Of a stretch of DNA of 39,397 bases, positions 8,944 to 35,473 are shown piece by piece. The notes under the pieces were generated by a model that saw only the letters and a program-made list of their open reading frames with translations, searched no databases and was not told where the DNA came from. The translations under genes and the position numbers were made by a program. The stretch is from a virus, in the IMG/VR virus record IMGVR_UViG_3300020171_000014, positions 1 to 39,397 of that record; one strand, written 5' to 3'. How positions within the stretch are numbered: the first letter of the stretch is position 1; the number at the start of each line of letters is the position of its first letter.

Positions 8944-9906
8944 ATGGCAACTGGTAATAGTTCCTTCACAAAACTGATTACCACGACCCTTCAGAACCTC
9001 CCATCGGAAGTTTTTGACGCAGTTTCCACGAATAACGCACTACTTTATATGCTCCAAAAGAGGGGCAATTTAAAGATAGTGTCGGGTGGGCGGACTTTTA
9101 CCCATCCTATTTACTACAAAGCCAACACTTCTTTTAAATCCTACAACAAGACTGATACCATTGATACGCCTTTAATGGATGATGTTACTCGTGCTGAGTA
9201 TCCAATAAAGATAGTCGCTGGTTCAGTCGTGATTTCATTGCTTGAAGAAGCGATGAACTCAGGAAACAAAGAGAAGTTGATTGACTTGGTAGAGGAAACC
9301 GTAACACGCGCCAAAATTTCTATGGCAGAAGTTATGGGGGATCAGGTATTCGGTGACGGTGCCGGAGACAAGGATATTGATGGAATACGGTTCTTAATCA
9401 ATCCTGCTCCAGATGGTCAAGCAGATGTAGGTGGCATTGATGCATCTGCGAGTGGAAATGAATATTGGAGAAATCAAATCGGAACTACTGCTGATTTTAA
9501 TGCAACTACGGCTACATCTCTTGGCAAAATGTCAGCATTAGTGGCGGCTTGCACCTTTGGACGCCAAGGCCCGAGGTTGGTAATTACTACAAAGACCTTA
9601 TATTCTGAATATGAGGCTATGTTGGCTGCCAATGTTAGATATGTTACGACTGAGTTAGCAGACGCTGGATTTATGCACCTTGCATACCAGACTATGCCAC
9701 TCATATTTGATGACAATTGTCCGGCGGGTCAGATGTATTTCATTGACACGGACAACCTCTGGTTACAAGTATTGGCAAGAGGCAATATGGAATTAACGGA
9801 TATGCAACCTTCCCATGACCAATTGATGCGGGTAGCGTTGATGTATCTATTTGGCAACTTAACGACTGGCTCACGCCGGACTAACGGATATCATCCGTGG
9901 TCATAA
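8944..9906 (+). CDS. Major capsid protein (HK97 fold)
   Basis: A 320-residue protein in the canonical position after the scaffold. It begins without a long delta domain. It shows the E-loop-like and spine-helix pattern of HK97-type capsid proteins: GGRTFTHPIYYKANTSFKSY early, LIDLVEETVTRAKISMAEVM (spine helix), GDGAGDKDIDGIRFLINP and then the P-loop and A-domain segments, ending GSRRTNGYHPWS. Expected to form the icosahedral shell. No signal peptide, unlike the next gene. A GAGGAGTTT site precedes the ATG. Confidence 0.85.
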   Translation: MATGNSSFTKLITTTLQNLPSEVFDAVSTNNALLYMLQKRGNLKIVSGGRTFTHPIYYKANTSFKSYNKTDTIDTPLMDDVTRAEYPIKIVAGSVVISLLEEAMNSGNKEKLIDLVEETVTRAKISMAEVMGDQVFGDGAGDKDIDGIRFLINPAPDGQADVGGIDASASGNEYWRNQIGTTADFNATTATSLGKMSALVAACTFGRQGPRLVITTKTLYSEYEAMLAANVRYVTTELADAGFMHLAYQTMPLIFDDNCPAGQMYFIDTDNLWLQVLARGNMELTDMQPSHDQLMRVALMYLFGNLTTGSRRTNGYHPWS

Positions 9907-9919
9907 TAGGAGGAATAAG

Positions 9920-10471
9920 ATGAAAAAATATCTATTTATCGTCTTGGCACTCCTACTGATGGTCGGAGTAGCCAATGCAACAAACATACCACAAGAAACT
10001 GATCCAAAGAACTATCCTACTGTTTGGACTGAATTAGTCTATTCAGCTACAAACATTGCAACTGGTATGGTAGTAGTGTGGGATTTTGATACCTCGGATT
10101 CTGACGCTGGTTCTGTTTACGATGATATGTGTCCGTGGGTAAAAGTTTCCGCTACTGCGGATAGTGTATGGACTGCTGGAGTAACCACAATAGGAAAAGT
10201 AGGGGGAACTTATGCTATCCAAGCAGGTAGCATAGGCAGGATTATCATTAAAGGCCCTGCTCCTGTTCACAATAACGGAACAGCTGCTACTGTGAACACT
10301 ATTTGTGCTTCAACAAGTGCTGGTTATGTAGGAGTTAATACGCCAAGCACAGATACTGCTTCTTTGGGTGTGGTAATAAAGGCTTCGGCTGCTGGTAATG
10401 ATGTAGAAGCGGATTTAGGTGCAAATTCTTCGCTTATTTACATTGATCCAACACTGAATCCTTCAAGTTAA
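9920..10471 (+). CDS. Decoration-type protein with a Sec signal peptide
   Basis: A 183-residue protein in the position of a head decoration protein (immediately after the capsid gene, before the terminator). Yet it starts with a textbook Sec signal peptide: KK, a hydrophobic core (FIVLALLLMVGV) and cleavage at ANA-T near residues 20/21. The mature part is beta-rich and Ala/Thr/Gly-rich (VTTIGKVGGTYAIQAGSIGRIIIKG), similar in texture to DUF2190-like decoration or head-fiber proteins. Ribosome site GGAGGAATAAG fixes the start. Whether it is exported or incorporated in virions cannot be told from sequence. Confidence 0.65.
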   Translation: MKKYLFIVLALLLMVGVANATNIPQETDPKNYPTVWTELVYSATNIATGMVVVWDFDTSDSDAGSVYDDMCPWVKVSATADSVWTAGVTTIGKVGGTYAIQAGSIGRIIIKGPAPVHNNGTAATVNTICASTSAGYVGVNTPSTDTASLGVVIKASAAGNDVEADLGANSSLIYIDPTLNPSS

Positions 10472-10478
10472 CAAAACT

Positions 10479-10509
10479 GGGGGCGGGAATCCTGCCCCCT
10501 TTTGTCTTT
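10479..10509 (+). terminator. Strong intrinsic terminator after the capsid genes
   Basis: GGGGGCGGG at 10479-10487 pairs with CCTGCCCCC at 10491-10499 (nine pairs, one G-U) around an AAT loop, then TTTTGTCTTT. It starts eight bases after the decoration gene stop. This is the clearest terminator in the window and should separate the high-level capsid transcript from the following genes. Confidence 0.93.
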
Positions 10510-10511
10510 AT

Positions 10512-10712
10512 ATGAGAATATTATTACTTTTAATTTTACTATTATCGGGTTGTGCCACAACTTTTCAACCTTCTGGTAATGACGGAAGAAAGACCGAATA
10601 TTATTGGGCTAAACAAACCTGTTCTTTATGCCACAAACCTTGCGGGTATTTTAAGATTATGAATAAAAAGAAAATTGTATGTGCGGGTTGTTTTGAGAAA
10701 AGGTATAAATGA
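10512..10712 (+). CDS. Small zinc-ribbon lipoprotein
   Basis: A 66-residue protein with a short type II signal peptide (MRILLLLILLLSGCA; lipobox LSGC, lipidated Cys14). The mature part has CSLCHKPCGYF and CAGC, i.e. a two-CxxC arrangement that could bind a metal or form disulfides. It starts just after the terminator and its stop overlaps the next start (ATGA), so it is translationally coupled to the O-antigen ligase-like gene. The pair looks like an inserted moron, and the lipoprotein may act at the envelope with its partner. Confidence 0.6.
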   Translation: MRILLLLILLLSGCATTFQPSGNDGRKTEYYWAKQTCSLCHKPCGYFKIMNKKKIVCAGCFEKRYK

Positions 10713-11815
10713 TAAACCTTTTCCTTGTGTTCTTTTGTTTATTGCCCTGGGGGAGTTTCTTTTTTAAACAAGTTGATATTTGGCATAGCACAGGGCAATT
10801 CGTTCAGGTCGGTATCCTGATATTATTCTACTGGTCGTTCTTTGAAAAACCGAAATCAGTCCAGATATTAAACAGGGCATTGGGTTCATTTATCTGTTGG
10901 GCTGGATTGACAACCGCTTATGGTTGGATAACGGTATTCGCTACTTCTAAACATTATCCTATCAAGATATTTATGCCATTCTTTAATCTATTATGCCTGA
11001 TATTGCTCTATAAGTTGATTGTGGAATACCTTGATGGCAAGAATATAGAAAGAATATTGAGATGGCTAAAATATAGCGTGATGTTACTTATTATTTACTG
11101 TACCTTGCAATATTTTAAACTTGACGAATTTTTTAGTGGGATAAATAACACTGGCGACCAGTTGGTAGGGACTATCGGGAATCCGATGCACCTTGCGGGG
11201 ATGTTGGCGATGTGCCAACCCTTATTCTTCAAGAAAAGTTTTGAGAATATATTATCCCTGATTGTCCTTTGGTCGGTAATCTTATTGACAGGTTCTGCCA
11301 CAGGGTTGATAGCGGGGATAGCAGTTATATTGTTCTGGTTATTTTTCAAGAAACGATTGGCGTTCACAATCGCCTCGGCAATATCGGTTCTTTCTCTCAT
11401 TGCATTATATTTTTACAAAAGCAATTTTTTCTTTAACTCCGACAGATTCAGAGTATGGGGTTTGGTTTGCAAGGCAATAAAGGATAAATTTATCACGGGT
11501 TTCGGACTTGGGACTTATGGGATAAGCAATATAGGCGACACTAACATACATTGGCAGCATACTCATAATGAATACTTGCAGATTATTTTTGAGTTAGGTT
11601 CAATCGGATTAGTTTTGGTTCTTTGGTGTATCTGGGATTATTTTAGATTATTCAAGTCATTAAAAACAGATTTGACAATCAGGTTAGCAAGTATATTCTT
11701 CGGATTTTGTTTATTATGCGGAGTGACGTTTTTTAGTCATTTATGGATTACAAGTATTATTGGAATGATGGCATACGCAAGTTTATACGCAATTAAAAAC
11801 ACGGAGGTAGCGTGA
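10709..11815 (+). CDS. O-antigen ligase/polymerase-like membrane protein (Wzy_C family)
   Basis: A 368-residue polytopic membrane protein with roughly ten hydrophobic segments. Family motifs: GTIGNPMHLAGML (155-165), SDRFRVW (244-250), GFGLGTY (264-270) and HTHNEYLQIIFELGSIGLV (284-302), the conserved periplasmic loop region of WaaL/Wzy proteins. These enzymes join O-antigen units from undecaprenyl diphosphate to each other or to lipid A-core. In a phage it would alter host lipopolysaccharide, blocking superinfection or changing the serotype. Coupled by ATGA to a lipoprotein gene and by GTGA to the connector gene. Confidence 0.8.
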   Translation: MINLFLVFFCLLPWGSFFFKQVDIWHSTGQFVQVGILILFYWSFFEKPKSVQILNRALGSFICWAGLTTAYGWITVFATSKHYPIKIFMPFFNLLCLILLYKLIVEYLDGKNIERILRWLKYSVMLLIIYCTLQYFKLDEFFSGINNTGDQLVGTIGNPMHLAGMLAMCQPLFFKKSFENILSLIVLWSVILLTGSATGLIAGIAVILFWLFFKKRLAFTIASAISVLSLIALYFYKSNFFFNSDRFRVWGLVCKAIKDKFITGFGLGTYGISNIGDTNIHWQHTHNEYLQIIFELGSIGLVLVLWCIWDYFRLFKSLKTDLTIRLASIFFGFCLLCGVTFFSHLWITSIIGMMAYASLYAIKNTEVA

Positions 11816-13476
11816 GAACCCGTTTAGAAATCAGGAATAGAGTAGCAACCGACACAAGGGAAACACAGATAAATACTTCTATTGAAGAATGGATAAACCA
11901 AACATTGGCAGAAATCAATGACCCCGCCTGGGCTTTTGAACAAGTTATTGCTATGCGCGGATATAATCATAACTGGTCGTTCAATCGCAGGAAAGCAACT
12001 CTTATTGTTGGTTCTGGTATTTATACCAAATTATTACTTCATTGCGACGGAATTGATGCTTCGACTACCTTTATCGATGAAACAGAAAAAATAATAACCG
12101 CTAATGGAACCGCCCAAATAGACACTGCACAAAGCAAATTCGGCGGGGCTTCTGGGTTATTTGGTGGAGTTGACGCTTATTTATCAACTCCAGACCACGC
12201 TAACTGGAATTTTGGCATAGGAAATTTTACCATAGATTTATGGATTAGGTTCAATACGTTGACTAATGCTCAAATATTTATGGGGCAATACGAGGATGCA
12301 AATAATTATTGGTATCTTATGAAAGATGCCAATGCCAATGGCAATAAGTTGAGTATGAAATTCGTTGATGGCGCTACTACGAAAGGTAATTATGTTATGA
12401 CAAGTTCGTGGTCGGGAGTGGCAATCAACACTTGGTATCATTTAAGGTTTGTAAGAAGTTCAGGGGTTGGGTATATATTTATAGATGGAACATCCCAGAC
12501 TCTTACCGAATCTACCGCATTTTCGTCTAATGATGTAGGTGATATGTCCGCAGTATTGACTATCGGTCAGCAGAATTCTGCCAGTTATTTTGATGGTTGG
12601 ATGGATGAAATAAGAGTATCCAAAGGCATAGCAATATCAACCGCCGATTTTACATCTCCGACAGATGCTTTCACTTATAGTGTGGATACGGAGTTCTACC
12701 AATTACCCAGAGATGTAGATAAAATATCTTTAATCAGGCAGACTGCTACTCCAATAAAAATCAGATTTATCCCAGACGATTTATTCTACGATTATATTCC
12801 TAATCCCACCGCCACGGGAAACCCCAAATGGTATCGTATATGGGAAGAAGAAGGTGTCAGGGTAAGGTTATCCTTTGATGACACAATTGAGGTAATTTCA
12901 TCTTCGGCTTCTGATACTACCCAGACAATAAGGATAGTTGGTTATGATACAAATGGTTTATTAAGGACGGAAAGTTTAACATTAACAGGCCAAACCGTGG
13001 TTTCGGGGACTATTACCTATGATGCAGGAAAAGTATTAAGGGTATCAAAATCAGATAATACGACAGGTGTAATTACTGTAAGAAAAGCAACTGGGGATGT
13101 TACACTTGTCCAGTTAGCCCCCACTGAAAGGGCTGGACGTTTTAAGATTATTTCTTTATATCCCATACCTACATCAGCAATCACTCTTTACATAGAATAC
13201 TTTACCACTATACGCAGATTAGAAGGCGACAATGATGTCCCTGATTTAGATGAGAAATGGTTATGGGTAGTCAGACTTGGCGCAATGGCGAAGGTATATC
13301 AATACCAGAATAAAGAAAGTCTGTTCAATACCACGCAGGCATTATTCGCTTCGGCGGTAAGAAGTATGGTAAAGGCAGATTTAGGGAATGTAGATTATAT
13401 CCCTTATTTACGAAGTCAGTTGGATAGTATAGGCCAGAGAGATATTTTAGATTTGTGCGATTTACCGTTAGGCTAA
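11812..13476 (+). CDS. Head-tail connector/adaptor protein with an inserted LamG domain
   Basis: A 554-residue protein with a GTG start overlapping the upstream stop (GTGA). Residues 1-70 (RLEIRNRVATDTRETQINTS) and about 290-554 (EFYQLPRDVDKISLIRQ ... DEKWLWVVRLGAMAKVYQYQ) look like an adaptor of the kind joining portal and tail. Between them, about 74-287 is a separate LamG/concanavalin-like beta sandwich: LLLHCDG, GNFTIDLWIRFNT, NTWYHLRFVRSSG, YIFIDGT, LTIGQQ, FDGWMDEIRVSKG. Such domains bind glycans, so the neck of the virion would display a carbohydrate-binding module. A second LamG protein is encoded at the end of the operon. Confidence 0.75.
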   Translation: MRTRLEIRNRVATDTRETQINTSIEEWINQTLAEINDPAWAFEQVIAMRGYNHNWSFNRRKATLIVGSGIYTKLLLHCDGIDASTTFIDETEKIITANGTAQIDTAQSKFGGASGLFGGVDAYLSTPDHANWNFGIGNFTIDLWIRFNTLTNAQIFMGQYEDANNYWYLMKDANANGNKLSMKFVDGATTKGNYVMTSSWSGVAINTWYHLRFVRSSGVGYIFIDGTSQTLTESTAFSSNDVGDMSAVLTIGQQNSASYFDGWMDEIRVSKGIAISTADFTSPTDAFTYSVDTEFYQLPRDVDKISLIRQTATPIKIRFIPDDLFYDYIPNPTATGNPKWYRIWEEEGVRVRLSFDDTIEVISSSASDTTQTIRIVGYDTNGLLRTESLTLTGQTVVSGTITYDAGKVLRVSKSDNTTGVITVRKATGDVTLVQLAPTERAGRFKIISLYPIPTSAITLYIEYFTTIRRLEGDNDVPDLDEKWLWVVRLGAMAKVYQYQNKESLFNTTQALFASAVRSMVKADLGNVDYIPYLRSQLDSIGQRDILDLCDLPLG

Positions 13477-13478
13477 AT

Positions 13479-15320
13479 ATGAAGAAATTATTACTTACAT
13501 TATTTTTAGTATTATCTTTATCTTACGCAAACGCGCAGGAGAAGGCAAGGGTTTTTCCTGAACAGGGATTGCAGACCTTCCTCGGTCTCGATGATACTTC
13601 AAGTCCACCGATAGTAAAAGATGGCCGTGCCGCAGATATCCAAAATATCACCCTTGATATAACTGGCGCAGCTTCAAAACGCAATGGTTATGCGTTTCAT
13701 TGCTTATTAGATACTCTTGCCTTAGTTGATGATTTCGAGGCAGTAACAGGTATGCACGAAATCTATGCCTCAACTGGTATTCGCACAAAGATAGCCACTT
13801 GTGGTAATAAGTTATTTGCTATCACAAAGGCAGGGGTAAAGACTGATATTACAAATGGTGTTACCATTACCGAGGGCGAAGATTATCAATGGTCATTCAT
13901 TACCGCACTTGATTATGGAATAGGGACGAATAATGTTGACCCTCCGATTAAGACTCAAGGGACTTCCGCAACTACTTCCGCGCTTTCCTTTACTGGCCTT
14001 TCCAATACAGTTACCGATGCTAAATGTATTATTTGGTGGAAAAATTATCTCATCATTGGAAATACTACTGAAGCGGTAACTGGCGTTCATCCCACCCGTA
14101 TCCGATGGTCTAATGTCGGTTATATTGAAACTTGGTCGAATGACGATTATGTGGATATTGCTACTTTAGGCGGTCAACAGATAGAAGGTTTTGCCACTCT
14201 TTATGATAACCTTTATATCTTTCTTACCGATAGTATCTATAAAGTATCTTTGGTCGGGGGCGATGAGTTAATAAATGTCAGCAAGGTAAGCGAGGGCATA
14301 GGTTGTATCGCCAAAAATTCAATCCAGAACATACAGATAGGAAATTCCGAAGGTCTTATATTCTTATCCAGGGACAAGACAATAAATTTCTGCGATGGCG
14401 TAAAGGTTCAGGAAATATCAACTAACATCAGTAATTTAATGGATGATTTATCTTCGGCTCGGCTTCCTTATGCGGTAAGCATAGATGACCAGGAAAACGC
14501 CCATTATTATTTGGCAGCGACTACCTCTGGGACAAATGATTTACTTTTAGATTTCCATTATGGCATAGGGGAATGGTCAAAACATATACAGATAGATGCA
14601 AATGCTTTCTGCGTGGCCAATGATAGCAATGAAAAGCCACAGATATATTTTGGGAATTACCATTCGGTAATATATCAGATGATTGACCCCGATAAAGACA
14701 GTGATGTGGGTGGGGATACTGGAACAATAACAAGCACGGGAACTTATGATACAGCAACCGCTACGGGACAAACAGTCTTATACGATACCTCTGCCAACTT
14801 TACCGCAACTGGAGTTATTGTAACTGGGGCGATAGTATCTTTTACATCGGGAACTGGAGTAGGGACAGAAGTAGTAATTACAAGTTCAATACCTACGGGA
14901 CTTATGGTTACAGGGATTACTGTTACGGCTATCACGGGGACTACTTATTCTATTGGTGCAATAGACGCATACTACACGACTAAATGGTATGACACTGGTT
15001 CTGCGGTTATGCGCAAGAATTTTGGCGAGTTATTCCTTTGGGCTTCTGCGGATACTTCCGTAAATATGCAGGTTTATTATGCGACTGATTTCGCTAATAC
15101 AATAACTTCAACTGATGTGGATATAGGCACAGAGGGTAGCCTTTGGGGGACTGCTATATGGGGAACAGATGTCTGGGGCGGTTCTGAAACCAAACTTTCA
15201 ATAATACCCTTGAATGTTTCAGGCAGGTATATCAAGTTAAAATTCAGCGAGAATAGTATTGACGAACCGATGGATTTGCTTGGATACAATATTTTATTAT
15301 GGGACTTGGATTATAAATAA
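13479..15320 (+). CDS. Tail hub/tail-tube-B-like protein with a signal peptide
   Basis: A 613-residue protein. An in-frame ATG 24 bases upstream exists, but the ATG three bases after the connector stop gives a clean signal peptide MKKLLLTLFLVLSLSYANA-Q. After it, GRAADIQNITLDITGAASKRNGY matches the start of many phage tail-nozzle or stabilisation proteins (ASDIQN...G.LSKRPGY). The body is beta-rich with repeated short strands, as in a propeller (IRWSNVGYIETW, VSIDDQENAHYY, KWYDTGSAVMRKNFGELFLW). It probably closes the short tail tube. A Sec leader on such a protein is unexpected. Confidence 0.65.
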   Translation: MKKLLLTLFLVLSLSYANAQEKARVFPEQGLQTFLGLDDTSSPPIVKDGRAADIQNITLDITGAASKRNGYAFHCLLDTLALVDDFEAVTGMHEIYASTGIRTKIATCGNKLFAITKAGVKTDITNGVTITEGEDYQWSFITALDYGIGTNNVDPPIKTQGTSATTSALSFTGLSNTVTDAKCIIWWKNYLIIGNTTEAVTGVHPTRIRWSNVGYIETWSNDDYVDIATLGGQQIEGFATLYDNLYIFLTDSIYKVSLVGGDELINVSKVSEGIGCIAKNSIQNIQIGNSEGLIFLSRDKTINFCDGVKVQEISTNISNLMDDLSSARLPYAVSIDDQENAHYYLAATTSGTNDLLLDFHYGIGEWSKHIQIDANAFCVANDSNEKPQIYFGNYHSVIYQMIDPDKDSDVGGDTGTITSTGTYDTATATGQTVLYDTSANFTATGVIVTGAIVSFTSGTGVGTEVVITSSIPTGLMVTGITVTAITGTTYSIGAIDAYYTTKWYDTGSAVMRKNFGELFLWASADTSVNMQVYYATDFANTITSTDVDIGTEGSLWGTAIWGTDVWGGSETKLSIIPLNVSGRYIKLKFSENSIDEPMDLLGYNILLWDLDYK

Positions 15321-15640
15321 TGAGAAGGATTATTTGCGGATTCATTTTGGGAAGTCTATTAGTAAGCGGGATAAGTTATGCTTACAGAACCCCTAAACCG
15401 CAGAGGATTACCGACTTTAACCAGAACGGATTAGTAATACTTAATGAGAATTTAGAACAACTCTGGAATGTAACGAATGGAAGATACAATCTAAATATTA
15501 CCACGAATAATCCCGATGGAAGTTTGCAGGGAAATGGGGGAGATATGGTTTTATTCAATAATAGTGGAACTTACTATCTTGAAATAAATACTACTGGGGC
15601 GAAAGTTTGGCGCGGGGTAGTCCTTACGAATACGCCATAG
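15320..15640 (+). CDS. Small tail protein with a signal peptide
   Basis: A 106-residue protein whose ATG overlaps the previous stop (TAATG). It has a signal peptide (RR, hydrophobic stretch, SYA cleavage near residue 21), then ITDFNQNGLVILNENLEQLW, a helix like those at the N-terminus of fibers, and a beta-rich C-terminus (GGDMVLFNNSGTYYLEINTT). Possibly a fiber adaptor or short fiber. It is coupled to the following fiber gene. Confidence 0.55.
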   Translation: MRRIICGFILGSLLVSGISYAYRTPKPQRITDFNQNGLVILNENLEQLWNVTNGRYNLNITTNNPDGSLQGNGGDMVLFNNSGTYYLEINTTGAKVWRGVVLTNTP

Positions 15641-15648
15641 GAGATAAG

Positions 15649-16437
15649 ATGAAAAAAATATTATTTGTTTTGATACTTTTATTACTTCCAACTTTTTTAT
15701 ATTCTGCACCGCCTTCCAGAGTTTATACTTATACAACAGGCAATAAAATCAATCCATCGGAAGTTACGCAGAACGAAGATGCTATTTTTAATTATCTATC
15801 AAGAGGTGTTGATAAATTTGCAGGTGCTATTGAAACTGGCAATATCCTTGATGGCACACTTACCAATGCGGATATATCGGGGAGTGCGGCGATAACTTAT
15901 GGGAAGTTAAGTTTAACAGGCGGGATACTTAATGCCGACATATCTTCTTCGGCGGCGATAGTAGATACTAAATTAGCACAGATTACTACCGCTTCAAAAG
16001 TTCATACTTCTTCTATTACTGGTGGATTAACTTTACCCTCAGGTGCAGTATTCTTTATGATAACTGGTAGTTGTCCTACTGGTTCAACAGATGTTACTGC
16101 GACATATACAGGTAAATCTGTAAGAATAAATGCCACTCAAGGGTCAACTGGCGGTTCAGATACAGTAACAATATCAGAAGCAAACTTACCAAGTCATATT
16201 CACGCAGCAGGAACTTTGACTGGTGGGGCGCATACACATAGTCTTCCTTATAATACCACTGGCGGGGAGAATCCAGGTTTAACTACCCCCAGCACAGCTG
16301 GGTATGAGGGTGCCTCTCCTTCTACAGGTTCAGCTGGCGCAGTTGCAGTCACAGGTTCAACTGGAGCAATTGGTTCAGGAACGGCAACAACAATAACTAA
16401 TCCTTATGTAACTTGTAAAATGTGTCAAGTGAATTAG
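15649..16437 (+). CDS. Tail fiber/collar-type protein with a signal peptide
   Basis: A 262-residue protein; an AGGAG site selects the ATG that opens with the signal peptide (MKKILFVLILLLLPTFLYSA). The mature N-terminus resembles a fiber attachment helix (NKINPSEVTQNEDAIFNYL), followed by repeated ADISGSAAI / ADISSSAAI elements and a C-terminal phage collar-like domain: ISEANLPSHIHAAGTLTGGAHTHSLP, with metal-binding-type His pairs, ending ITNPYVTCKMCQVN. Receptor-binding or fiber-tip role is likely. The frame continues after its TAG for 11 codons to another TAG. Confidence 0.7.
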   Translation: MKKILFVLILLLLPTFLYSAPPSRVYTYTTGNKINPSEVTQNEDAIFNYLSRGVDKFAGAIETGNILDGTLTNADISGSAAITYGKLSLTGGILNADISSSAAIVDTKLAQITTASKVHTSSITGGLTLPSGAVFFMITGSCPTGSTDVTATYTGKSVRINATQGSTGGSDTVTISEANLPSHIHAAGTLTGGAHTHSLPYNTTGGENPGLTTPSTAGYEGASPSTGSAGAVAVTGSTGAIGSGTATTITNPYVTCKMCQVN

Positions 16438-16466
16438 GTGTTAGATGAACTTCTGCAAATCGCCAA

Positions 16467-16751
16467 ATGTTAGAAATAATTAAAGACGAATTGGGAAATA
16501 TAAAAGCATGTCTTGAATTTTATTCTGTTAATGAAAAAGGCGAGTGGGATTTCAAAGGAATTTATTGTTGGATAAATGAAGTTGCGGTTTCAAAATCATA
16601 TCAGAATAATGGATGTTTAAGAAAGTTTGTAAAAATAATAACCTCCAAATATCCGCAGTTTCAGTTCGGATACTTTTGGCGACAGAATAAATATCCTGAT
16701 AGAAAAATTAGGATATATCACAAGGCAAGATGGATGAAATTATTAAAATGA
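16467..16751 (+). CDS. GNAT-like acetyltransferase, short phage form
   Basis: A 94-residue protein with WINEVAVSKSYQNNGCLRKFVK, in which an acidic/Val strand is followed by Q-N-N-G-C-L in the place of the acetyl-CoA-binding QGxGxG/A of GNAT enzymes, and a C-terminal YFWRQNKYPDRKIRIYHK segment. It is shorter than a full GNAT domain and lacks the usual first glycine. Lies with an HNH nuclease between fiber and ejection genes, so both may be a mobile insertion. Substrate unknown. Confidence 0.5.
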   Translation: MLEIIKDELGNIKACLEFYSVNEKGEWDFKGIYCWINEVAVSKSYQNNGCLRKFVKIITSKYPQFQFGYFWRQNKYPDRKIRIYHKARWMKLLK

Positions 16752-17434
16752 GAGATAAATTAGGCAGATTTGTAAAGGGGAAACATCCTTCTATTGAAAC
16801 TGAATTTAAAAAAGGAAACAAGGGGTTTTGGTTGGGTAAAAAAAGATTAAATATGACAGGCAAAAATCATCCTATGTATGGAAAACATCATACCGAAGAA
16901 ACAAAAGAAAAATGTAAATTGGCAAATTTAGAAAAACATCGTTCTCCAAAAACAGAATTTAAGAAAGGAATAGTTCCCTGGAATAAAAATAAAGAATTAC
17001 CACAATTTTATGGTGATAAACATCCTAATTGGAAAGGTGGAATATTTCCCTGCATCGATTGCGGAACATTAGAAAAATCTCATTATGTAAAAAGATGTTT
17101 TGAGTGTGGAGTTAGATTTTATAAAGGTGAACATTCACCCAACTGGAGAGGTGGTTTATATAAATATCCATCAAAGTTTAATAAGACATTGAAAGATTTT
17201 ATTCGTCGTCGTGATAATTGGAAATGTCAAAAGTGTGGGGCACCACAGGAAGAATTTATAAATAAATTACCTGTTCACCATATTGATTATGATAAAAATA
17301 ATTGTAATTTTAATAACCTTATAACGCTTTGTAAATTATGCAATACAGAGGTAAATTTTAATAGAGAATATTGGACAAATTATTTTCAAGAAAAAATAGG
17401 AGGTCTAAAATGGGCGGGACAAAATCTGAAGTAA
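16748..17434 (+). CDS. HNH homing endonuclease with NUMOD motifs
   Basis: About 228 residues, starting at the ATG overlapping the previous stop (ATGA). The N-terminal part has NUMOD3-type repeats (GKNHPMYGKHHTEETKEK; GDKHPNWKGG; GEHSPNWRGG), which help bind DNA in homing endonucleases. A zinc ribbon (CIDCG...CFECG) precedes the HNH core: RRRDNWKCQKCG...LPVHHIDYDKNNC...LITLCKLCN. It likely cuts DNA at a specific site to spread itself. It overlaps the next gene's start by 25 bases. Its Lys-rich, AT-rich composition differs from the surrounding fiber genes. Confidence 0.88.
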   Translation: MRDKLGRFVKGKHPSIETEFKKGNKGFWLGKKRLNMTGKNHPMYGKHHTEETKEKCKLANLEKHRSPKTEFKKGIVPWNKNKELPQFYGDKHPNWKGGIFPCIDCGTLEKSHYVKRCFECGVRFYKGEHSPNWRGGLYKYPSKFNKTLKDFIRRRDNWKCQKCGAPQEEFINKLPVHHIDYDKNNCNFNNLITLCKLCNTEVNFNREYWTNYFQEKIGGLKWAGQNLK

Positions 17435-18147
17435 TCCAACTTCCAACAACACCAGCTCCAAATCCATCGGAGACGTCAGCACAATCCCTACAAGCACAAT
17501 TACAATATAATCCTCAATTATATGAGCAATATGCGCAGATGTATCAACAATATATGCCTCAATTAGCCGCCACTGATGTTTCTTTGCAACAACAGTATGC
17601 ACCTTTAATGCAGGCACTTCAGCAACAGATGTATCCAGAACAAGGAAAATTAGTTGAAGCATTGGCGGGTCAAGCATTGGGTATGATGGGTTCGCAACAA
17701 TATGCTACCCCAGAACAACAGGCTGCAGTAGATGCCATAAGACAACGGGAATCGAATAGATTATCGCAATCAATGCGTTCCCGTGCAAATCTCGGTGGGA
17801 ATTTATATTCTGGAAACGCCCAACAAATGGAAAGTAGGGCACAACAAGAATTAAGTCAAGGATATGCGGCACAAGATATTGATAGATTAAGACAGCAACA
17901 ACAAATGGCATTGCAATATGCGGCTCCCATAGCTCAAATAATGTATCCTCAAATTCAACAACCACAAATGCCAACATATACACAACCCGTAGTTCCTTCG
18001 GCTGACACTCTCTATAATGCCTATTATGGAGCCAGTCAGCCGAATTATCTATATCAACAAGGTTCTCAAAGTCCTCTATGGGGTTTAGCAGGTTCTGTTG
18101 CTGGCGGTATTAGTGGAGGATGGGCAAATAATTTCTTTAAAAAATAA
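17410..18147 (+). CDS. Gln-rich internal virion/DNA ejection protein
   Basis: A 245-residue protein; AGGAGG before the ATG (inside the HNH gene end) selects this start. Extremely Gln/Ala/Tyr-rich with long helical regions (YEQYAQMYQQYMPQ, QQQYAPLMQALQQQM, RQRESNRLSQSMRSRANLGG), ending in a small hydrophobic Gly-rich segment (LWGLAGSVAGGISGGWANN). This matches the first of the ejection proteins of short-tailed phages, stored in the capsid and released to form a channel across the host envelope. First of three such genes in a row. Confidence 0.65.
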   Translation: MGGTKSEVIQLPTTPAPNPSETSAQSLQAQLQYNPQLYEQYAQMYQQYMPQLAATDVSLQQQYAPLMQALQQQMYPEQGKLVEALAGQALGMMGSQQYATPEQQAAVDAIRQRESNRLSQSMRSRANLGGNLYSGNAQQMESRAQQELSQGYAAQDIDRLRQQQQMALQYAAPIAQIMYPQIQQPQMPTYTQPVVPSADTLYNAYYGASQPNYLYQQGSQSPLWGLAGSVAGGISGGWANNFFKK

Positions 18148-18160
18148 TTAGGAGGTAACA

Positions 18161-19135
18161 ATGTCTATTCAAGTTTTACCCGCTCAAAGAACAGGTGGAC
18201 AAGATTTTGTTGACGCATTTACTCCCTATATACAACTTGCTTTTCAAGCAATGATGAAACGACAATTAGAAGAGCAGCAACGCCAACGCAATATCCAACA
18301 GGCGCAACAAATGATGCCTGAAGCATTTACTTCTGATTATGAAGCGGCGACAAGAGGACAAAAAGGAGTTAATGTAAATTTACAACAAGGATACCAACCT
18401 ACCCCTGAAATGTGGCAACAGATTTATCAAGGACAAACCGGTAAGACTACTGTGCCATCGCAATATATGAAATTTATGCCAGAACAGGCGCAGAAGTATC
18501 CGGGGATGGGAATAAACTTCCAGACTGGAGAGATGGAATATAAAGTGCCTTCAAATTTTGGCACTATGCCTATTATAAATATAACTTCGGAAGGTAAGGC
18601 TGAACAGATAGGAACAGCCCCGAAAGGTGCAAAAATAGTAAGTGGAATGGGTGAACCAAGTCCCGCACAACAAAAATTTGAAGCAGAACAAAAAGAAAAA
18701 ACACAGCAATTAGAAGAAAAATCTCAATTTATTAAAGACTCTGCATCTGATGCTCTTAATACAATAGGTGAGATTGAAAAGGGTATAGGGCATTTTGGTT
18801 TATTTGGACAACTTCCTTCAATTCCAGGAACTGAAAGATATACCTGGGAAACAAATATAAATAAATTATTATCTGGAAAAATGATTGATTTAATGACTAA
18901 AATGAAAGAAGCAAGTAAAACAGGTGCTACTGGCTTTGGACAATTAAGCGAGAAGGAAGGACAAATATTACGGGAAGCATCTACGGCATTAAAAAGAGGT
19001 CTTACTCCAGAGAAAGCACAAGAATATTTGAATAGTATGAAAGCGACACTTCAGAAAGTAATGCAAGGTGGACAGCAACTACAACAAACAGGTTTAGAAT
19101 ATCAGAAATATTTACAAGCAATCGGAGGTCAATAA
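18161..19135 (+). CDS. Gln-rich internal virion/ejection protein 2
   Basis: A 324-residue helical protein with a Gln-rich N-terminus (MMKRQLEEQQRQRNIQQAQQM), a central region with GFGQLSEKEGQILREASTALKRG, and a C-terminal helix. A segment with GLFGQLPSIPGTERYTWETNINKLLSGKMIDLMTKMKEASKTGATGFGQLSEKE is reminiscent of phage DNA-transfer proteins. Preceded by TAGGAGG. Position between two similar proteins supports an ejection role; no enzymatic motif is visible. Confidence 0.6.
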   Translation: MSIQVLPAQRTGGQDFVDAFTPYIQLAFQAMMKRQLEEQQRQRNIQQAQQMMPEAFTSDYEAATRGQKGVNVNLQQGYQPTPEMWQQIYQGQTGKTTVPSQYMKFMPEQAQKYPGMGINFQTGEMEYKVPSNFGTMPIINITSEGKAEQIGTAPKGAKIVSGMGEPSPAQQKFEAEQKEKTQQLEEKSQFIKDSASDALNTIGEIEKGIGHFGLFGQLPSIPGTERYTWETNINKLLSGKMIDLMTKMKEASKTGATGFGQLSEKEGQILREASTALKRGLTPEKAQEYLNSMKATLQKVMQGGQQLQQTGLEYQKYLQAIGGQ

Positions 19136-20472
19136 TGCCTCTCACACAAGAACAATTCCAAAAAGCAAGAGAATCAGGTTTTTCTACCGAACAGATTATT
19201 GAATTTGAAAAAAGAAGAATAACAGAACAACCACAACAATCAATTTCTCAACCTCAAATTTCGATTCAAGAACAACCTCAAATTCCACAACAGCAACCGC
19301 AAGAACCATTTTATAAACGGATGATGCAACCATCTATCTTTGGCCCAATCGGACAGGCATATCAGGGTATCCCTGAAAGTATTAGAACCAGATTACAAGA
19401 ATCAGGATTATTTGGGCCATTAGGAACTAAGGGAGGGCAACAAGTTGTTTCTGCACCTTATAATATCGCCAAAGGAATAACTGGATTTGCCCAAGAACAA
19501 CTTAAAAGAATACCGAAAGTTAAAGAAGCATATCAAACACCACAAGCCCTCGGTATGTATGGGCCATTGGGAGTTGGCGCGGGTTATTTGATGAAACCCG
19601 AACAGAGAGAAAAATTCGCCACAGGAACTATCTCTGAATTAGGCGGGATATACGGAGGTGGAAAAATATATCAGGGGTTATTTAATTTTGTAAGTAAATT
19701 CAAGAATTGGCTCAATCCTAAAAATCAAATTAAATTAGCCGAAGAAACAAGAAATAATTTAATGCAACAGAAAGATAAAATAATAGAAAAATATGGAGAT
19801 GCTTACAATCGTATTATAAAACAATCCAATAAACAAATATCAATACAAGAACCTTTATTAAACTTGATTGATGAATCAGATGATATAGTCAATACCTTAA
19901 AAGGGAATCAAGAAGTTTCAGAGGCACTTGCAAGGGGTGAACCAAATGCCAAAAGGGTAATGAATATAGTCAATACCTTTATGGAAAAACCCCAAGAAAT
20001 ACAAAACTTATCGTTGCAAGAAGCGGATGGATTAGTCAAGTATATTAAAAATTTACCAGGGCTTAGGGGAAAATTTGCAAGTCAATATAAAGGTAGGCAG
20101 GTAGACTTTACTAATGCTGAACGTGTATTAAATAATTTTGCTAATGATATTAAAGCTCAAGTTTTAAATCAAGCCCCAGAGATGACTATGGTCAATAGGG
20201 AATACGGAACATTTATGTCTAATTACAAACAGATAAGAGGGTATCTAAAATGGAACAATGCAGTAACCAATATGAAAAATATACATAAATTAGACCCTGC
20301 CATATTAGATAAATTTCAACAGATGTTGCCACAGAATTTATTGAAGAATGTTTTACAAATGAATAGAACAGTCAGAAATGCAGAATTATTAAAAAGAATA
20401 GGAATTAGGGTAGGAGAAGGCGCAGCATTAGGAGCAACCGGATATGCTATTTATAAGGGTGGGAGACGATAG
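19135..20472 (+). CDS. Internal virion/ejection protein 3
   Basis: A 445-residue protein coupled to the previous gene (TAATG). The N-terminus has a small helical module (LTQEQFQKARESGFSTEQIIEFEKRR), then a Gln/Pro-rich linker, and repeated FGPIG/FGPLG/YGPLG glycine segments. The rest is helical, with a Gly/Ala-rich C-terminal hydrophobic stretch (GEGAALGATGYAIYKGGRR) that could cross a membrane. The long helical part fits the largest ejection protein. No lytic transglycosylase motif is visible. Confidence 0.6.
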   Translation: MPLTQEQFQKARESGFSTEQIIEFEKRRITEQPQQSISQPQISIQEQPQIPQQQPQEPFYKRMMQPSIFGPIGQAYQGIPESIRTRLQESGLFGPLGTKGGQQVVSAPYNIAKGITGFAQEQLKRIPKVKEAYQTPQALGMYGPLGVGAGYLMKPEQREKFATGTISELGGIYGGGKIYQGLFNFVSKFKNWLNPKNQIKLAEETRNNLMQQKDKIIEKYGDAYNRIIKQSNKQISIQEPLLNLIDESDDIVNTLKGNQEVSEALARGEPNAKRVMNIVNTFMEKPQEIQNLSLQEADGLVKYIKNLPGLRGKFASQYKGRQVDFTNAERVLNNFANDIKAQVLNQAPEMTMVNREYGTFMSNYKQIRGYLKWNNAVTNMKNIHKLDPAILDKFQQMLPQNLLKNVLQMNRTVRNAELLKRIGIRVGEGAALGATGYAIYKGGRR

Positions 20473-20486
20473 GAAAAATAATCACA

Positions 20487-20582
20487 ATGGCTATTCCCAA
20501 TATTATCCAAAACCAAAAATTATTTAATATCCACATAGTATCAAAAGTATACATTACATTTTCTAAAATGCAAGGAGAATAA
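20487..20582 (+). CDS. Possible small peptide
   Basis: A 31-codon frame in the 112-base gap after the ejection protein genes. Hydrophobic and basic residues alternate (IPNIIQNQKLFNIHIVSKVYITF). No clear ribosome site. It ends two bases before the next ATG, whose AAGGAG lies inside it. Weakly supported; the gap may simply be a leader. Confidence 0.2.
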   Translation: MAIPNIIQNQKLFNIHIVSKVYITFSKMQGE

Positions 20583-20584
20583 AT

Positions 20585-20845
20585 ATGCCATTCTTACGCA
20601 ATGAACAGCAGGTGTATTCAAGAAATCAAGGTCTAAAATATCGCGCCTCGTTTACCGCCGAAAATCAAGTAGAGTATGAAGGTTGGGCAGTTGATAATGA
20701 TGCCGCAGAGGGAGATTTGAAATGGCAAATTTTAAAGCACACATACCTTTCAGGCAATCTAACCGCGAGTAACTGGGCTTCTTCTGGCGGTCATTCTACT
20801 GATGATTTTATATTTAGTTGGACTTTGAAAGCTAATTACTTTTAA
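20585..20845 (+). CDS. Small structural-type protein
   Basis: An 86-residue protein with a strong CAAGGAG site. Sequence is beta-rich with many aromatic residues (EYEGWAVDNDAAEGDLKWQILKHTYLSGNLTASNWASS...FIFSWTLKANYF). It is four bases from the long fiber gene and may be a fiber cap, chaperone or small tail part. No family recognised. Confidence 0.5.
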   Translation: MPFLRNEQQVYSRNQGLKYRASFTAENQVEYEGWAVDNDAAEGDLKWQILKHTYLSGNLTASNWASSGGHSTDDFIFSWTLKANYF

Positions 20846-20849
20846 ACCT

Positions 20850-22916
20850 ATGAAAAAACTATTCTTATTATTATTCTTAATTCCAACCTTAGTTTTCGCA
20901 CAAGGTGGTGGAGGTTCAGGTTCTCATATTACATCAGAAGCACAACATCCACTTCGCCATCGTATCGGAAGAATACTCATAGATGAAGATATAGATACTG
21001 TTCCCTATGGTCTTATTGCCACAGGTATCACGGTAACAAACGGGGCAACCGCTTCAGGCATCATTATTATCAAGGAAGATTCTGATGATGGCGTTAATTA
21101 CGCTTCTTTTACCGTTCCTGCCTTAACAGATAATACAGTTTATATTTTACCCACCGACGATGGTAACGCAAATGAAGTCTTATCAACTAATGGTGCCGGT
21201 GTCTTGGATTGGGCGGCCGCAGGTGGTGGTGCTCCTACCGATGCCGATTACCTCGTAGGCACTGCTAATGGCTCTTTATCCGCAGAAATTGTCGTCGGTG
21301 CAACCCCGGGTGGCGAATTAGGTGGCACTTGGGCTTCTCCGACCATAGATGATAGTCTTGCGGTAACAAACTGGAATTTAACAACGCCTACCCTTACAAC
21401 CTCAGCCACAGTAACAGATGCCTTTACTCTTGGCTTAGGCACAGGCAAAGGGTTAATCCAGTTTGATGATGAGACGACTGATTTTATATCTTTGCTTAAT
21501 GCTAATGTGGGAATAGGAACGGCTACTCCAGGTTACAGATTAGAGGTACCGTGGTTATCTGGAGATACAACTACTACGGCTTATTTTGGAAGTAGCAATG
21601 CAAATAATAACCAGACTGCTATTTATGGAAGGTCTTATTCAAATTATGCTGTCTATGGGCAAAGCACGAGTAGTTTAGGTGTTTATGGCGTTAGTGTAAG
21701 TGGTTATGGTGTTTGTGGCGTTAGTTCAAGTGGTTTTGGTGTCTACGGTATTAGTTCAAGTGGCATTGGTGGATATTTCTTAATCAATCCAACTTCTACA
21801 AATACCACAGTTGAAATAATGAGATTAGGAAGAGACACATCAGAAACAGCCGCAGCAAATATTGGTGGTGCGATAAATTGGTATTTAGAAGATACCGTCG
21901 GAACAGCAGAACTCACAGGCAGAATATCAAATATATTGACTACCGCAACATCTGGTTCTGAAACTTCTGCTTTTACTTTCTGGACAAGAACAGGTGGTGC
22001 AGCGATTGCAGAGGTATTGAGAATCGATGGTTCTGGCAACGTCGGCATTGGCACTACGGCACCATATAGTTTACTTGACGTTTCTTCAATAACTGGTGGT
22101 GTTTTTACCTTATCAAGATATGACACCTCTGTAACTGCTGCTGATGTTTTAGGTCAAATAAACTTTTGGTCAAATGATACTTCAACGACTACAAATCCAT
22201 TGGCAGCGCAAATACAGGTTACAGCAAAAAATACAATCGCAACCGATATAAACCCTGGCGTGATGAAGTTTTATACTACGCCAACTGGAGTGGCGGCGGC
22301 ACTCACATTAGCACTAACTCTTGATGAAACACAGGCGGCGACCTTTGCCAATACGGTAAATGCGACTACATTTGTAGGTGCTTTGACAGGCACAGCTTCA
22401 GGAAATCTCACCTCTGCAAGTATAGACACTTCTGCCGAATTATTAGCAATCGTAGGAGATGAAACTGGTTCTGGTGCTGGGACTCCTTTATTGGTATTTA
22501 ATCAATCGCCCGTTTTAGTAACCCCCAATATCGGAGTAGCAACAGCGACAGCGAACATAAAAGGCGAGCCGAAGCATTGGCATATTTCAATAATCAATCC
22601 CAATGGTGCTGTTACTGCCTCTACTATAATCCCGATTTGTAACCTTACCGATGCGGCATTGACGATAACCAGAATTACGGTTTCTACTTCTTCTGCCTCT
22701 TATGAAGCCGCATTTGATTTGAAATGGGCTGACGCAAGGATAGGATTAGGTAATGCGGCAGTATTGCATATATTAGACACTACGAGTGGTGTCTCCGATA
22801 CAGGTGCAGAAACTCTTGCAGTTGCTGCAGGAAAATTTGTGTATTTATCTTTCGACTCCGCACCTAATGCTTTGATGACAGATATGGTGGTGGATGTAGA
22901 TTATGATTACGACTAA
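20850..22916 (+). CDS. Long tail fiber protein with a signal peptide
   Basis: A 688-residue protein opening with a signal peptide (MKKLFLLLFLIPTLVFA-Q) and then a Gly-rich linker. The body is fibrous: Gly/Thr/Ser-rich beta repeats, five 10-residue units around AVYG(V/Q)SSSG, and two NVGIGT(A/T)(T/A)P motifs followed by a LEV/LDV strand, an element typical of long phage fibers and bacterial adhesins. The C-terminus is a compact beta domain. No S74 peptidase catalytic motif was found. Likely the main receptor-binding fiber. Confidence 0.72.
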   Translation: MKKLFLLLFLIPTLVFAQGGGGSGSHITSEAQHPLRHRIGRILIDEDIDTVPYGLIATGITVTNGATASGIIIIKEDSDDGVNYASFTVPALTDNTVYILPTDDGNANEVLSTNGAGVLDWAAAGGGAPTDADYLVGTANGSLSAEIVVGATPGGELGGTWASPTIDDSLAVTNWNLTTPTLTTSATVTDAFTLGLGTGKGLIQFDDETTDFISLLNANVGIGTATPGYRLEVPWLSGDTTTTAYFGSSNANNNQTAIYGRSYSNYAVYGQSTSSLGVYGVSVSGYGVCGVSSSGFGVYGISSSGIGGYFLINPTSTNTTVEIMRLGRDTSETAAANIGGAINWYLEDTVGTAELTGRISNILTTATSGSETSAFTFWTRTGGAAIAEVLRIDGSGNVGIGTTAPYSLLDVSSITGGVFTLSRYDTSVTAADVLGQINFWSNDTSTTTNPLAAQIQVTAKNTIATDINPGVMKFYTTPTGVAAALTLALTLDETQAATFANTVNATTFVGALTGTASGNLTSASIDTSAELLAIVGDETGSGAGTPLLVFNQSPVLVTPNIGVATATANIKGEPKHWHISIINPNGAVTASTIIPICNLTDAALTITRITVSTSSASYEAAFDLKWADARIGLGNAAVLHILDTTSGVSDTGAETLAVAAGKFVYLSFDSAPNALMTDMVVDVDYDYD
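21618..21767 (+). repeat. Five 30-bp tandem repeats inside the fiber gene
   Basis: Five in-frame units of 30 bases encode AIYGRSYSNY, AVYGQSTSSL, GVYGVSVSGY, GVCGVSSSGF and GVYGISSSGI. The last three are nearly identical in DNA. Repeats of this kind form one turn each of a fibrous beta structure and could change copy number by slippage, altering fiber length. Confidence 0.85.
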
Positions 22917-22928
22917 TAAGGAGGCAAT

Positions 22929-23207
22929 ATGTTAACAGCAATAGTTACAAAGAAATCAGTTATCAATCCGCAACCTAAGTTATTTATCATTACCTTCAAT
23001 CTATCGGTCAGCGAAGGAGCAACAACAGTTATCAATCAGGATTTTTCTACAGAATATCGGACAGGGGAAGCTATTTCAAACAGGATAAATGATGTTACGG
23101 GAAAAATGCAAGAAGTGATAAATTGTTATAAGGCGGCTCAGGTAATATTTAACAATGCACAATTAGATAGTGCGGTGAGCACAATAAACGGAGGGCTTTC
23201 ATTATGA
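22929..23207 (+). CDS. Small tail-operon protein
   Basis: A 92-residue protein with a strong AAGGAGG site. Beta-rich N-terminus (KLFIITFNLSVSEGATTVINQDFSTEYR), then a helical C-terminus (RINDVTGKMQEVINCYKAAQ). No signal peptide. Its stop overlaps the next ATG (ATGA). Possibly a fiber chaperone or small virion protein; no family recognised. Confidence 0.5.
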   Translation: MLTAIVTKKSVINPQPKLFIITFNLSVSEGATTVINQDFSTEYRTGEAISNRINDVTGKMQEVINCYKAAQVIFNNAQLDSAVSTINGGLSL

Positions 23208-23899
23208 AACGGATAATTAGTTTAATCTTCGTAGGATTATTTTTATTCGCCAGCACTTGCTATGCCGCAGACACCATAACTGTTCTCGATGGTATCCAGT
23301 TTGCCAAGCCCGCAACGGCAGATGTCTGGACTTTAGATACTGCGACACTAACGCCAGTAGTAACTTATACAGTAGTTTTGCCTCCTACTGCTTCGGGAGC
23401 AAGGGTTATTTTTAATTCAGCGGAATCGACTGCGGCAACCAGATTTCACGTTAGGGTTAAATTGACAAAACTTTCAGGCATAAGCACTTTGGCTAAGACA
23501 GAAAATACGCAGGCTCTTGAGTGGTCATTAGTAACACCACCAGAGGTCTTGGAGACGGGGGCTATTGATGTTTCGGGTGGATATGAGAATACATTGCATA
23601 TTGACTGCGTTCTTACTGATGTTACGGCTTGCACAGCAGGAGTTGAAATTATCGTTCAGGTAAGAAGTGAGGCGTCGCTTGATGAATGGACAGACTTAAC
23701 ACGATTTGGTGGTCCAACAGGAACGGCATTTCAATCAGATTTTGTCGGGACAGCAAACGATATCGGGGATACTACCTTGGATGTTACTAATCCAGCAACA
23801 GGAAACCTTGACCACGTTGGGAAATTTATATTCTTAGAGGATACCGCAACCATAGCCCAATGTGAAATAGCATTTTTAGTTTCACAATCAGGTAATTAA
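23204..23899 (+). CDS. Secreted-looking beta-rich tail-operon protein
   Basis: A 231-residue protein with a signal peptide (MKRIISLIFVGLFLFASTCYA-A). The mature part is beta-rich, with TVLDGIQFAKPATADVWTLD, VTYTVVLPPTASGARVIF and TRFHVRVKLTKLSG. Two cysteines near VLTDVTACTAG might form a disulfide. Coupled to the gene before it. A fiber-associated or surface role is likely, but no family is recognised. Confidence 0.5.
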   Translation: MKRIISLIFVGLFLFASTCYAADTITVLDGIQFAKPATADVWTLDTATLTPVVTYTVVLPPTASGARVIFNSAESTAATRFHVRVKLTKLSGISTLAKTENTQALEWSLVTPPEVLETGAIDVSGGYENTLHIDCVLTDVTACTAGVEIIVQVRSEASLDEWTDLTRFGGPTGTAFQSDFVGTANDIGDTTLDVTNPATGNLDHVGKFIFLEDTATIAQCEIAFLVSQSGN

Positions 23900-23902
23900 G
23901 TT

Positions 23903-24748
23903 ATGCGTAAAATAATTTCTTTATTTTTAGTCTTTATTCTTTTCTGTCCTTCATTCTGTTATGCAGAAAGGAATAAACCCCCTCTTGGCTCTCAAATCAA
24001 CTGGTCTCACCCTCTCTCCAAAGGTCTTGTAGGTTGCTGGTTGATGAATGAGGGGGGAGGGAATAAAATCAATGATATTGCTAGAAAAAATAATGGGACT
24101 AATAGCGGGGGGACTTGGAATACCACAACTAAAGGAAAGGTATTATATTTTAATGGGAGCAGTTATGTAAACTGTGGTTCTTCGGGTAGTATAAATAGTA
24201 TTTCTACGGCAATATCATTAGTAGCGTGGATTAAAACAAGTAGTTCTACTAATAGCATACAAATAATTTCACATGATGGAGTTGCAAGTATACCCGTAAG
24301 ATGTTGGGACCTTGATATATACGTAAGTAAGTTACAAGCTAATTTTTGGGATAGTACAGGTAATCGGAGTTATACTGATAGTCTCACTACAGTAAATGAT
24401 AATGTATGGCATTTTATAGTAGCAACTTGTGATGCTAAGGGAGATAGAAAAGCAAGAGTATATATTGATGGAAAATTGGACAATACAGGAACGCAGGGCA
24501 ATTTTTATGATTTGAATACCTCATTAACAAGAATGGTTTATATTGGTGCAAGAGATTATACAACAGCATGTTATTTTACAGGTTATATCTCTGATGTTTG
24601 TGTCTACAACCGTGCCTTATCCCCCCAAGAAATACAGCAACTCTATATAGACCCGTATTGTTTTATTAAGAAACCTTCATTAATAGATTGGTTTAAGGCG
24701 GTAGTAAGTGGCGGTTACACAGGTCAAGTTTTCGTTGTGTCTGACTGA
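23903..24748 (+). CDS. LamG-domain protein with a signal peptide
   Basis: A 281-residue protein with a signal peptide (MRKIISLFLVFILFCPSFCYA-E) and a LamG/concanavalin-like domain over about residues 35-250: GLVGCWLMNEGGG, VLYFNGSSYVNCGS, AISLVAWIKTSS, WHFIVATCDAKGDRKARVYIDGK, RMVYIGARDY, FTGYISDVCVYNRALSPQEIQQLY. LamG modules of this set bind glycans or proteins. The C-terminal 30 residues are a separate tail (WFKAVVSGGYTGQVFVVSD). It ends the fiber cluster and may be a second carbohydrate-binding part of the tail. Confidence 0.75.
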   Translation: MRKIISLFLVFILFCPSFCYAERNKPPLGSQINWSHPLSKGLVGCWLMNEGGGNKINDIARKNNGTNSGGTWNTTTKGKVLYFNGSSYVNCGSSGSINSISTAISLVAWIKTSSSTNSIQIISHDGVASIPVRCWDLDIYVSKLQANFWDSTGNRSYTDSLTTVNDNVWHFIVATCDAKGDRKARVYIDGKLDNTGTQGNFYDLNTSLTRMVYIGARDYTTACYFTGYISDVCVYNRALSPQEIQQLYIDPYCFIKKPSLIDWFKAVVSGGYTGQVFVVSD

Positions 24749-25602: not shown

Positions 25603-25603
25603 A

Positions 25604-35403: not shown

Positions 35404-35472
35404 ATGATTTGGCTATTTGTGGTTTTAGTAATAAGTTTGATTATATTCATAGTAACTCATTTTGATTATTAA
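35404..35472 (+). CDS. Possible 22-residue membrane peptide
   Basis: A tiny frame with GAGAGGGG before its ATG and a nearly all-hydrophobic sequence (IWLFVVLVISLIIFIVTH) ending HFDY. A single-span peptide of this size might regulate a membrane protein. The next ATG follows its stop by one base. Length makes the call uncertain. Confidence 0.35.
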   Translation: MIWLFVVLVISLIIFIVTHFDY

Positions 35473-35473
35473 A

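Follow-up and report, generated by a model that had tools for sequence, protein, structure and literature searches.

An entire lineage of uncultivated short-tailed phages carries Sec/SPase I-type leaders on the proteins expected to form the outside of its particle (the head-decoration position, a tail nozzle-type protein, and fibers) but on none of those expected inside it or in its head and connector, suggesting that the virion is finished outside the cytoplasm; we found no tailed phage described like this in the open-access literature. The window, a 39,397-nucleotide IMG/VR virus record (IMGVR_UViG_3300020171_000014) taken at full length, was initially annotated as having seven virion-operon proteins that open with Sec signal peptides while the other structural genes lack them, and this observation is confirmed. 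All seven ORFs are present and begin with a short positive end, a hydrophobic core, and a small-x-small site: 9920, MKKYLFIVLALLLMVGVANA followed by TNIPQ; 13479, MKKLLLTLFLVLSLSYANA followed by QEKAR (the mechanical ORF runs back to a GTG at 13455, but 13479 is the ATG that aligns with relatives); 15320, MRRIICGFILGSLLVSGISYA followed by YRTPK; 15649, MKKILFVLILLLLPTFLYSA followed by PPSR (cleavage may fall one residue earlier); 20850, MKKLFLLLFLIPTLVFA followed by QGGGG; 23204, MKRIISLIFVGLFLFASTCYA followed by ADTIT; and 23903, MRKIISLFLVFILFCPSFCYA followed by ERNKP. Leaders were called with an explicit rule of our own rather than with SignalP, which was not run: an n-region net charge of >=+1, a 7-12 residue uncharged h-region with a mean Kyte-Doolittle value of >=2.3, and small residues at -3 and -1. 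The rule calls all seven, whereas shuffled N-termini pass it 3.6% of the time; in the window it also calls lipobox leaders at 421, 10512, and 26057 and further leaders at 7594 (which looks like a false positive), 25710, and 39003. The lipoprotein leader at 10512, the Wzy_C gene at 10709, and lipobox leaders at 421 and (spanin-like) 25710 were not listed in the initial annotation. The features of the region are as follows.

3346..4887 (+): terminase large subunit (TerL), no leader; NCBIfam termin_lrg_T7, 1.7e-33, below its cut-off.
5165..7093 (+): portal protein, no leader; synteny with Mx8 and clade alignment; 0/23 leaders in the clade.
8201..8917 (+): scaffold-position protein, no leader; position before the major capsid protein; 0/20 leaders.
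8944..9906 (+): major capsid protein (MCP), no leader; phrog_9953, 1.7e-57, and matches to the Mx8/Mx9 MCPs; 0/27 leaders.
9920..10471 (+): decoration-position protein with a Sec leader at 9920-9979; position of Mx8 p49, homology to p49 not shown; leader in 26/26 clade homologs.
10512..10712 (+): small lipoprotein (lipobox LSGC); 15/15 relatives in the AT-rich branch keep a leader, 14 of them with a called lipobox; not found in the GC-rich branch.
10709..11815 (+): Wzy_C O-antigen ligase/polymerase/O-OTase-type membrane protein; PF04932, 2.2e-13; 9/9 relatives; invariant H-x-H-N-E motif.
11812..13476 (+): head-tail adaptor with an inserted LamG domain, no leader; SU10_adaptor PF24175, 2.6e-11, and Laminin_G_3, 1.1e-15; 0/28 leaders.
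13479..15320 (+): tail nozzle-type protein with a Sec leader at 13479-13535; phrog_3287, 5.4e-29; leader in all relatives that reach the N-terminus.
15320..15640 (+): small tail protein with a Sec leader at 15320-15382; leader called in 19/20 homologs.
15649..16437 (+): collar/fiber protein with a Sec leader at 15649-15708; phrog_5717 (tail), 1.1e-6; leader in 20/20 homologs.
16467..16751 (+): GNAT-position protein, no leader; synteny with Mx8 p53; 0/13 leaders.
17410..18147 (+): ejection/internal protein, no leader; synteny with Mx8 p54; 0/15 leaders.
18161..20472 (+): two further ejection-position proteins (18161 and 19135), no leader; synteny with Mx8 p55-p57.
20850..22916 (+): long fiber-like protein with a Sec leader at 20850-20900; the related region of two other records (L002 and L004) also has a leader.
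23204..23899 (+): tail-end protein with a Sec leader at 23204-23266; homologs in other phages start at the mature N-terminus, without a leader.
23903..24748 (+): LamG protein with a Sec leader at 23903-23965; Laminin_G_3, 1.8e-24; relatives (L064 and L065) lack the leader.
25396..25976 (+): lysis-like block, with a holin-like ORF at 25396 and a spanin-like pair at 25604/25710 in overlapping frames, read from the sequence as a TM segment and as TM plus coiled-coil-like and lipobox ORFs; phrog_9685, unknown function.

The order TerL, portal, scaffold, MCP, 9920, [lipoprotein, Wzy_C], adaptor, 13479, 15320, 15649, GNAT, 17410, 18161, 19135 follows that of Myxococcus phage Mx8 p44-p57, Mx9, Stenotrophomonas phage BUCT555, and a Manatee Spring phage, with genes inserted, and the MCP matches those of Mx8/Mx9 at 28-31% identity. 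Both the homologous MCP and the structural gene order place these phages with the Mx8-type short-tailed phages, but the known members have virion proteins without leaders, and we therefore file the leadered phages as a separate clade rather than as Myxoctovirus. Family evidence places 13479 as a virion structural protein, and in related phages its place is taken by genes annotated as head closure or phage stabilization; 13479 is most likely the tail nozzle and 9920, right after the MCP, the decoration-position protein, although the nozzle, decoration, and collar names rest on gene order and weaker matches. Profile-profile comparison of 13479 with the Mx8 nozzle reached only E 0.018, that of 9920 with Mx8 p49 was not significant, AlphaFold2 models of 13479 and 9920 built with 8 and 7 clade sequences had mean pLDDT values of only 32 and 35, so that no fold search followed, and a PDB sequence search for the nozzle gave only chance matches; together these comparisons leave homology of the two proteins to their Mx8 counterparts unsettled. 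In the phage genome collection searched there is no close relative: the portal matches one Manatee Spring record at 21%, Wzy_C and 23903 have no match, and 15649 matches Prochlorococcus phages only weakly.

The trait is not peculiar to this record. Scans of viral contigs gave more than 30 relatives (up to 33 related IMG/VR contigs), with MCP identities from 89% down to 39% and a GC content of 34-59%, a range over which the leaders persist, so composition is not the cause. Per distinct contig, though several contigs are close relatives and the counts are not independent samples, leaders are called in 26/26 members of the 9920 family, 25/27 nozzles, 19/20 members of the 15320 family, and 20/20 collars, or 90/93 in the four core families; the three misses still look like leaders by eye (MMRWVTRWLCRTLWLTLAGASWVGA followed by EEQ; ...WILWVGLWALLLSSPALA followed by QEK, where the start codon is not obvious; and MKKLLVIFFIFILFDTYA followed by LR). 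In the same contigs, MCP, adaptor, portal, scaffold, ejection protein, and GNAT give 0/126. The same rule gives 0/92 for the late genes of six related phages, Mx8-type phages among them, and 0/25 for T7 and P22 virion genes; at the ORF level, 55/230 are called in clade loci as compared to 14/298 in non-clade loci. Leaders are also present on the variable 3′ genes (20850, 23204, and 23903, and several more in G002, a 39.7 kb relative), so the pressure seems to act on any protein in this role, but one family (20585) has leaders in some members and none in others, including the window.

The leaders are maintained and were added. In alignments, leader letters drift while composition is retained and the first mature residues are conserved (nozzle QEKARVFPEQGLQ.FLGLDDTSSPP), whereas simulated random mutation at 50% nucleotide divergence leaves only about 6% of leaders passing the rule. 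Homologs lacking the N-terminal segment had been named in advance as grounds for rejecting the observation; such homologs exist only outside the clade, where they show that the leaders were added. Homologs of 23204 in two other phages (L066 and L067) start as VAAVDTIVILDGL and MAAIDTIVIADGL, at the mature N-terminus of the window protein (ADTITVLDGI after CYA), LamG relatives of 23903 also lack leaders, and Mx8-type nozzles begin about where the mature part begins. An MCP tree puts all 29 leadered phages on one side of a single 100/100 branch, consistent with one gain at the base, although the outgroup is distant; a narrow MCP scan found no intermediate, leaderless sister lineage. DNA identity among the seven leaders is at most 0.70 by global alignment, not convincing for recent duplication from one another. 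A cytoplasmic isoform made from an internal start is unlikely for most of the seven: 15649, 20850, 23204, and 23903 have no candidate in-frame start within about 25 codons after the leader, and 13479 has only a TTG at codon 31, whereas 9920 has an ATG inside its leader. No second, leaderless nozzle gene is seen in the window or in G002.

We posit that the leaders are working Sec signal peptides and that these phages make the head, portal, adaptor, ejection proteins, and packaged DNA in the cytoplasm, while the outward-facing proteins (the decoration-position protein, nozzle, 15320, collar/fiber, and variable fibers) are exported through the inner membrane, trimmed by signal peptidase I, and folded in the periplasm, joining the filled heads late, either when the inner membrane is breached at lysis or where heads dock at it. 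We give this reading a probability of about 0.5. The sequences themselves show the leaders, their selectivity, their retention across the clade, a pattern consistent with a single gain, and their absence from outgroup homologs, whereas export, cleavage, incorporation into the virion, and the place and time of joining are inferred, no experiment having been done. The h-regions are about as hydrophobic as, or more so than, the DsbA leader for six of seven (10-residue means of 2.5-3.9, as compared to 2.7 for DsbA), which suggests co-translational export, and the lipobox ORF overlapping a transmembrane ORF in another frame (25604/25710), typical of spanins, points to a probably diderm host with a periplasm. 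Scans of genome contigs with the nozzle and portal found no host or prophage; a Bacteroidota host following the Q rule was considered, but the +1 residues are mixed (T, A, Q, Y, E), and strong AGGAGG sites speak against it. Against the model, known tailed phages assemble in the cytoplasm, a filled head without its nozzle should be unstable, and mature 15320 starts with several positive charges (YRTPKPQR) that can hinder export. A disulfide reason for export finds little support, as mature Cys counts are 0-7 with no clear pattern. A lineage, diverse enough to span 34-59% GC, that has put Sec leaders on its exterior virion proteins and on none of its interior ones would mean either that a tailed virion can be finished outside the cytoplasm or that phage structural proteins have a conserved second life in the host envelope, in contrast to the teaching that tailed phages assemble wholly in the cytoplasm; whether tailing can be uncoupled from the cytoplasm and whether phages use periplasmic glycosylation for their particles become directly testable, and annotation pipelines should not take a signal peptide to rule out a virion protein.

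Three mechanisms were initially proposed, namely assembly of tail parts at or in the inner membrane or periplasm, display on or shedding from the host, and membrane anchoring for tail assembly, and this interpretation is partly supported: the selective pattern and its absence from other tailed phages that we could check stand on much stronger evidence than one contig could offer, periplasmic finishing fits best, uncleaved anchors fit less well, and display or shedding cannot be excluded. The anchor model, in which leaders tether nascent tail parts and tails assemble on the cytoplasmic face of the inner membrane, draws on the very hydrophobic h-regions and the positive flank after the 15320 leader, but small residues at -3 and -1 are kept just before the conserved mature start in nearly all homologs and the charge balance in most proteins favors export, making it improbable. 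The exported proteins could instead, or in addition, act at the cell envelope, binding or masking receptors in the periplasm or outer membrane and, with Wzy_C altering the surface polysaccharide, blocking superinfection and the trapping of progeny on debris. LamG and fiber-like domains, together with a conserved lipoprotein and Wzy_C in the same operon, are compatible with this, as are serotype-converting glycan genes in phages such as P22 gtrABC, yet the nozzle-type and decoration-position proteins appear to have no other copy in the genome and sit in the conserved structural order of Mx8, and exclusion does not explain why they too are exported; we consider this reading unlikely. An artifact of wrong starts, host secretome genes, or chance hydrophobic N-termini is very improbable despite the chance rate of the rule, given clade-wide retention on the same families, in frame, and in conserved synteny with Mx8.

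A specific and more tentative version of the favored model supplies a concrete reason for sending virion proteins to the periplasm, one that the initial annotation, which did not mention the linked Wzy_C and lipoprotein genes, lacked: the phage Wzy_C protein could act like a PglL/PilO-type O-oligosaccharyltransferase and put host lipid-linked glycan on the exported proteins before they join the particle. Wzy_C is present in 28 contigs, as many as have an adaptor, and lies between the leadered 9920 and the adaptor wherever order could be read; PF04932 exceeds its cut-off in 8 of 9 records, and the catalytic-type HxHNE motif is invariant in the nine members aligned, supporting membership in the Wzy_C superfamily. 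Bacterial pglL genes are usually next to their target glycoprotein (21/31 in PMC3643930), and most leadered mature proteins are Ser/Thr-rich (14-28%, as compared to 8-18% for most of the rest), although high Ser/Thr is usual in fiber-like proteins. PglL_A (PF15864) is not matched by any member, though PilO lacks it too (PMC3643930), so the sequence does not tell ligase, polymerase, and protein transferase apart; Wzy_C also covers WaaL ligases and Wzy polymerases, and the one PDB match is a polysaccharide polymerase/ligase (E=0.0011). Glycan transfer was not assayed. A Wzy_C-like gene also occurs in an unrelated phage contig (L080) without leadered structural genes. The boldest form of the idea, a tailed dsDNA phage lineage with split-compartment morphogenesis in which heads are built and filled in the cytoplasm while the outer shell and tail are Sec-exported, glycosylated in the periplasm by a phage-encoded Wzy_C oligosaccharyltransferase, and fitted to the heads as the inner membrane opens, is not excluded but is improbable on present evidence.

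The initial claim that no described tailed phage has this many leaders in its tail operon agrees with our searches of the open-access literature, which found none. Among the closest systems, Mx8, Mx9, and BUCT555 share the MCP and gene order, but none of their late genes examined has a Sec leader and no Wzy_C gene is annotated in the late block; BUCT555 has annotated holin/endolysin genes in the same slot. Filamentous phages (Inovirus, M13 coat proteins) make virion proteins with cleavable signal peptides and tie assembly to the inner membrane, but here the TerL, portal, scaffold, and MCP of a tailed dsDNA phage are present, at odds with an ssDNA inovirus, and only the outer parts have leaders. 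Porphyromonas gingivalis phages of the proposed Nixviridae (PMC10367356) are the nearest report, with several Sec signal-peptide genes in one tailed-phage group, among them MCPs and spanins; five of those are genes of unknown function obeying the Bacteroidetes Q rule, the MCP signal is attributed to prohead protease cleavage, and we found no leaders described on tail genes. PglL/PilO protein O-oligosaccharyltransferases and WaaL ligases (PF04932) share with the phage protein the Wzy_C domain, the HN motif, and a gene next to exported proteins, but the phage protein is short (about 370 aa). SAR endolysins and exported lysis proteins of tailed phages, such as JG068 gp47 (PMC3765740), likewise use host Sec, but for a lysis enzyme rather than a virion part.

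The virion operon holds, between the decoration and adaptor positions (10512-11815), a lipoprotein gene plus a Wzy_C O-antigen ligase-type gene; the Wzy_C gene is present in every clade contig that covers this place, whereas the lipoprotein gene is not found in the GC-rich branch. In BUCT555 (L062), the slot that holds lipoprotein/Wzy_C here (10660-11396 in that phage) is occupied by annotated holin and endolysin genes. Another Wzy_C-like gene lies in the late region of an unrelated phage contig, L080 (7815-8897), which has no leadered structural genes. The adaptor of this phage (11812-13476) carries an extra LamG domain, at about residues 119-271, that is absent from the roughly 330-aa adaptors of its relatives. 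TerL (3346-4887), in contrast to the other head genes, which are conserved, is not orthologous across the clade: in some members (contigs L003, L004, and L019) it matches at only 26-29%, suggesting terminase replacement.

Farther along the window, a spanin-like pair (25604-25976) consists of a transmembrane/coiled-coil-like ORF and a lipobox-bearing ORF that overlaps it in another frame. An ORF at 34387-34860 is made largely of short tandem repeats of the ADAERQK/ASAEWEK type and is probably a coiled coil, its role being unknown, and a short C5-methylase-like ORF at 35462-36100, which matches PF00145 over its first 83 residues only, is either truncated or divergent. Finally, the record deposited as Microcystis phage MaAM05 (L059; MW495066.1) carries lepA, proS, ftsH, and other housekeeping genes next to a nozzle-like gene and may be a bacterial contig with a prophage.
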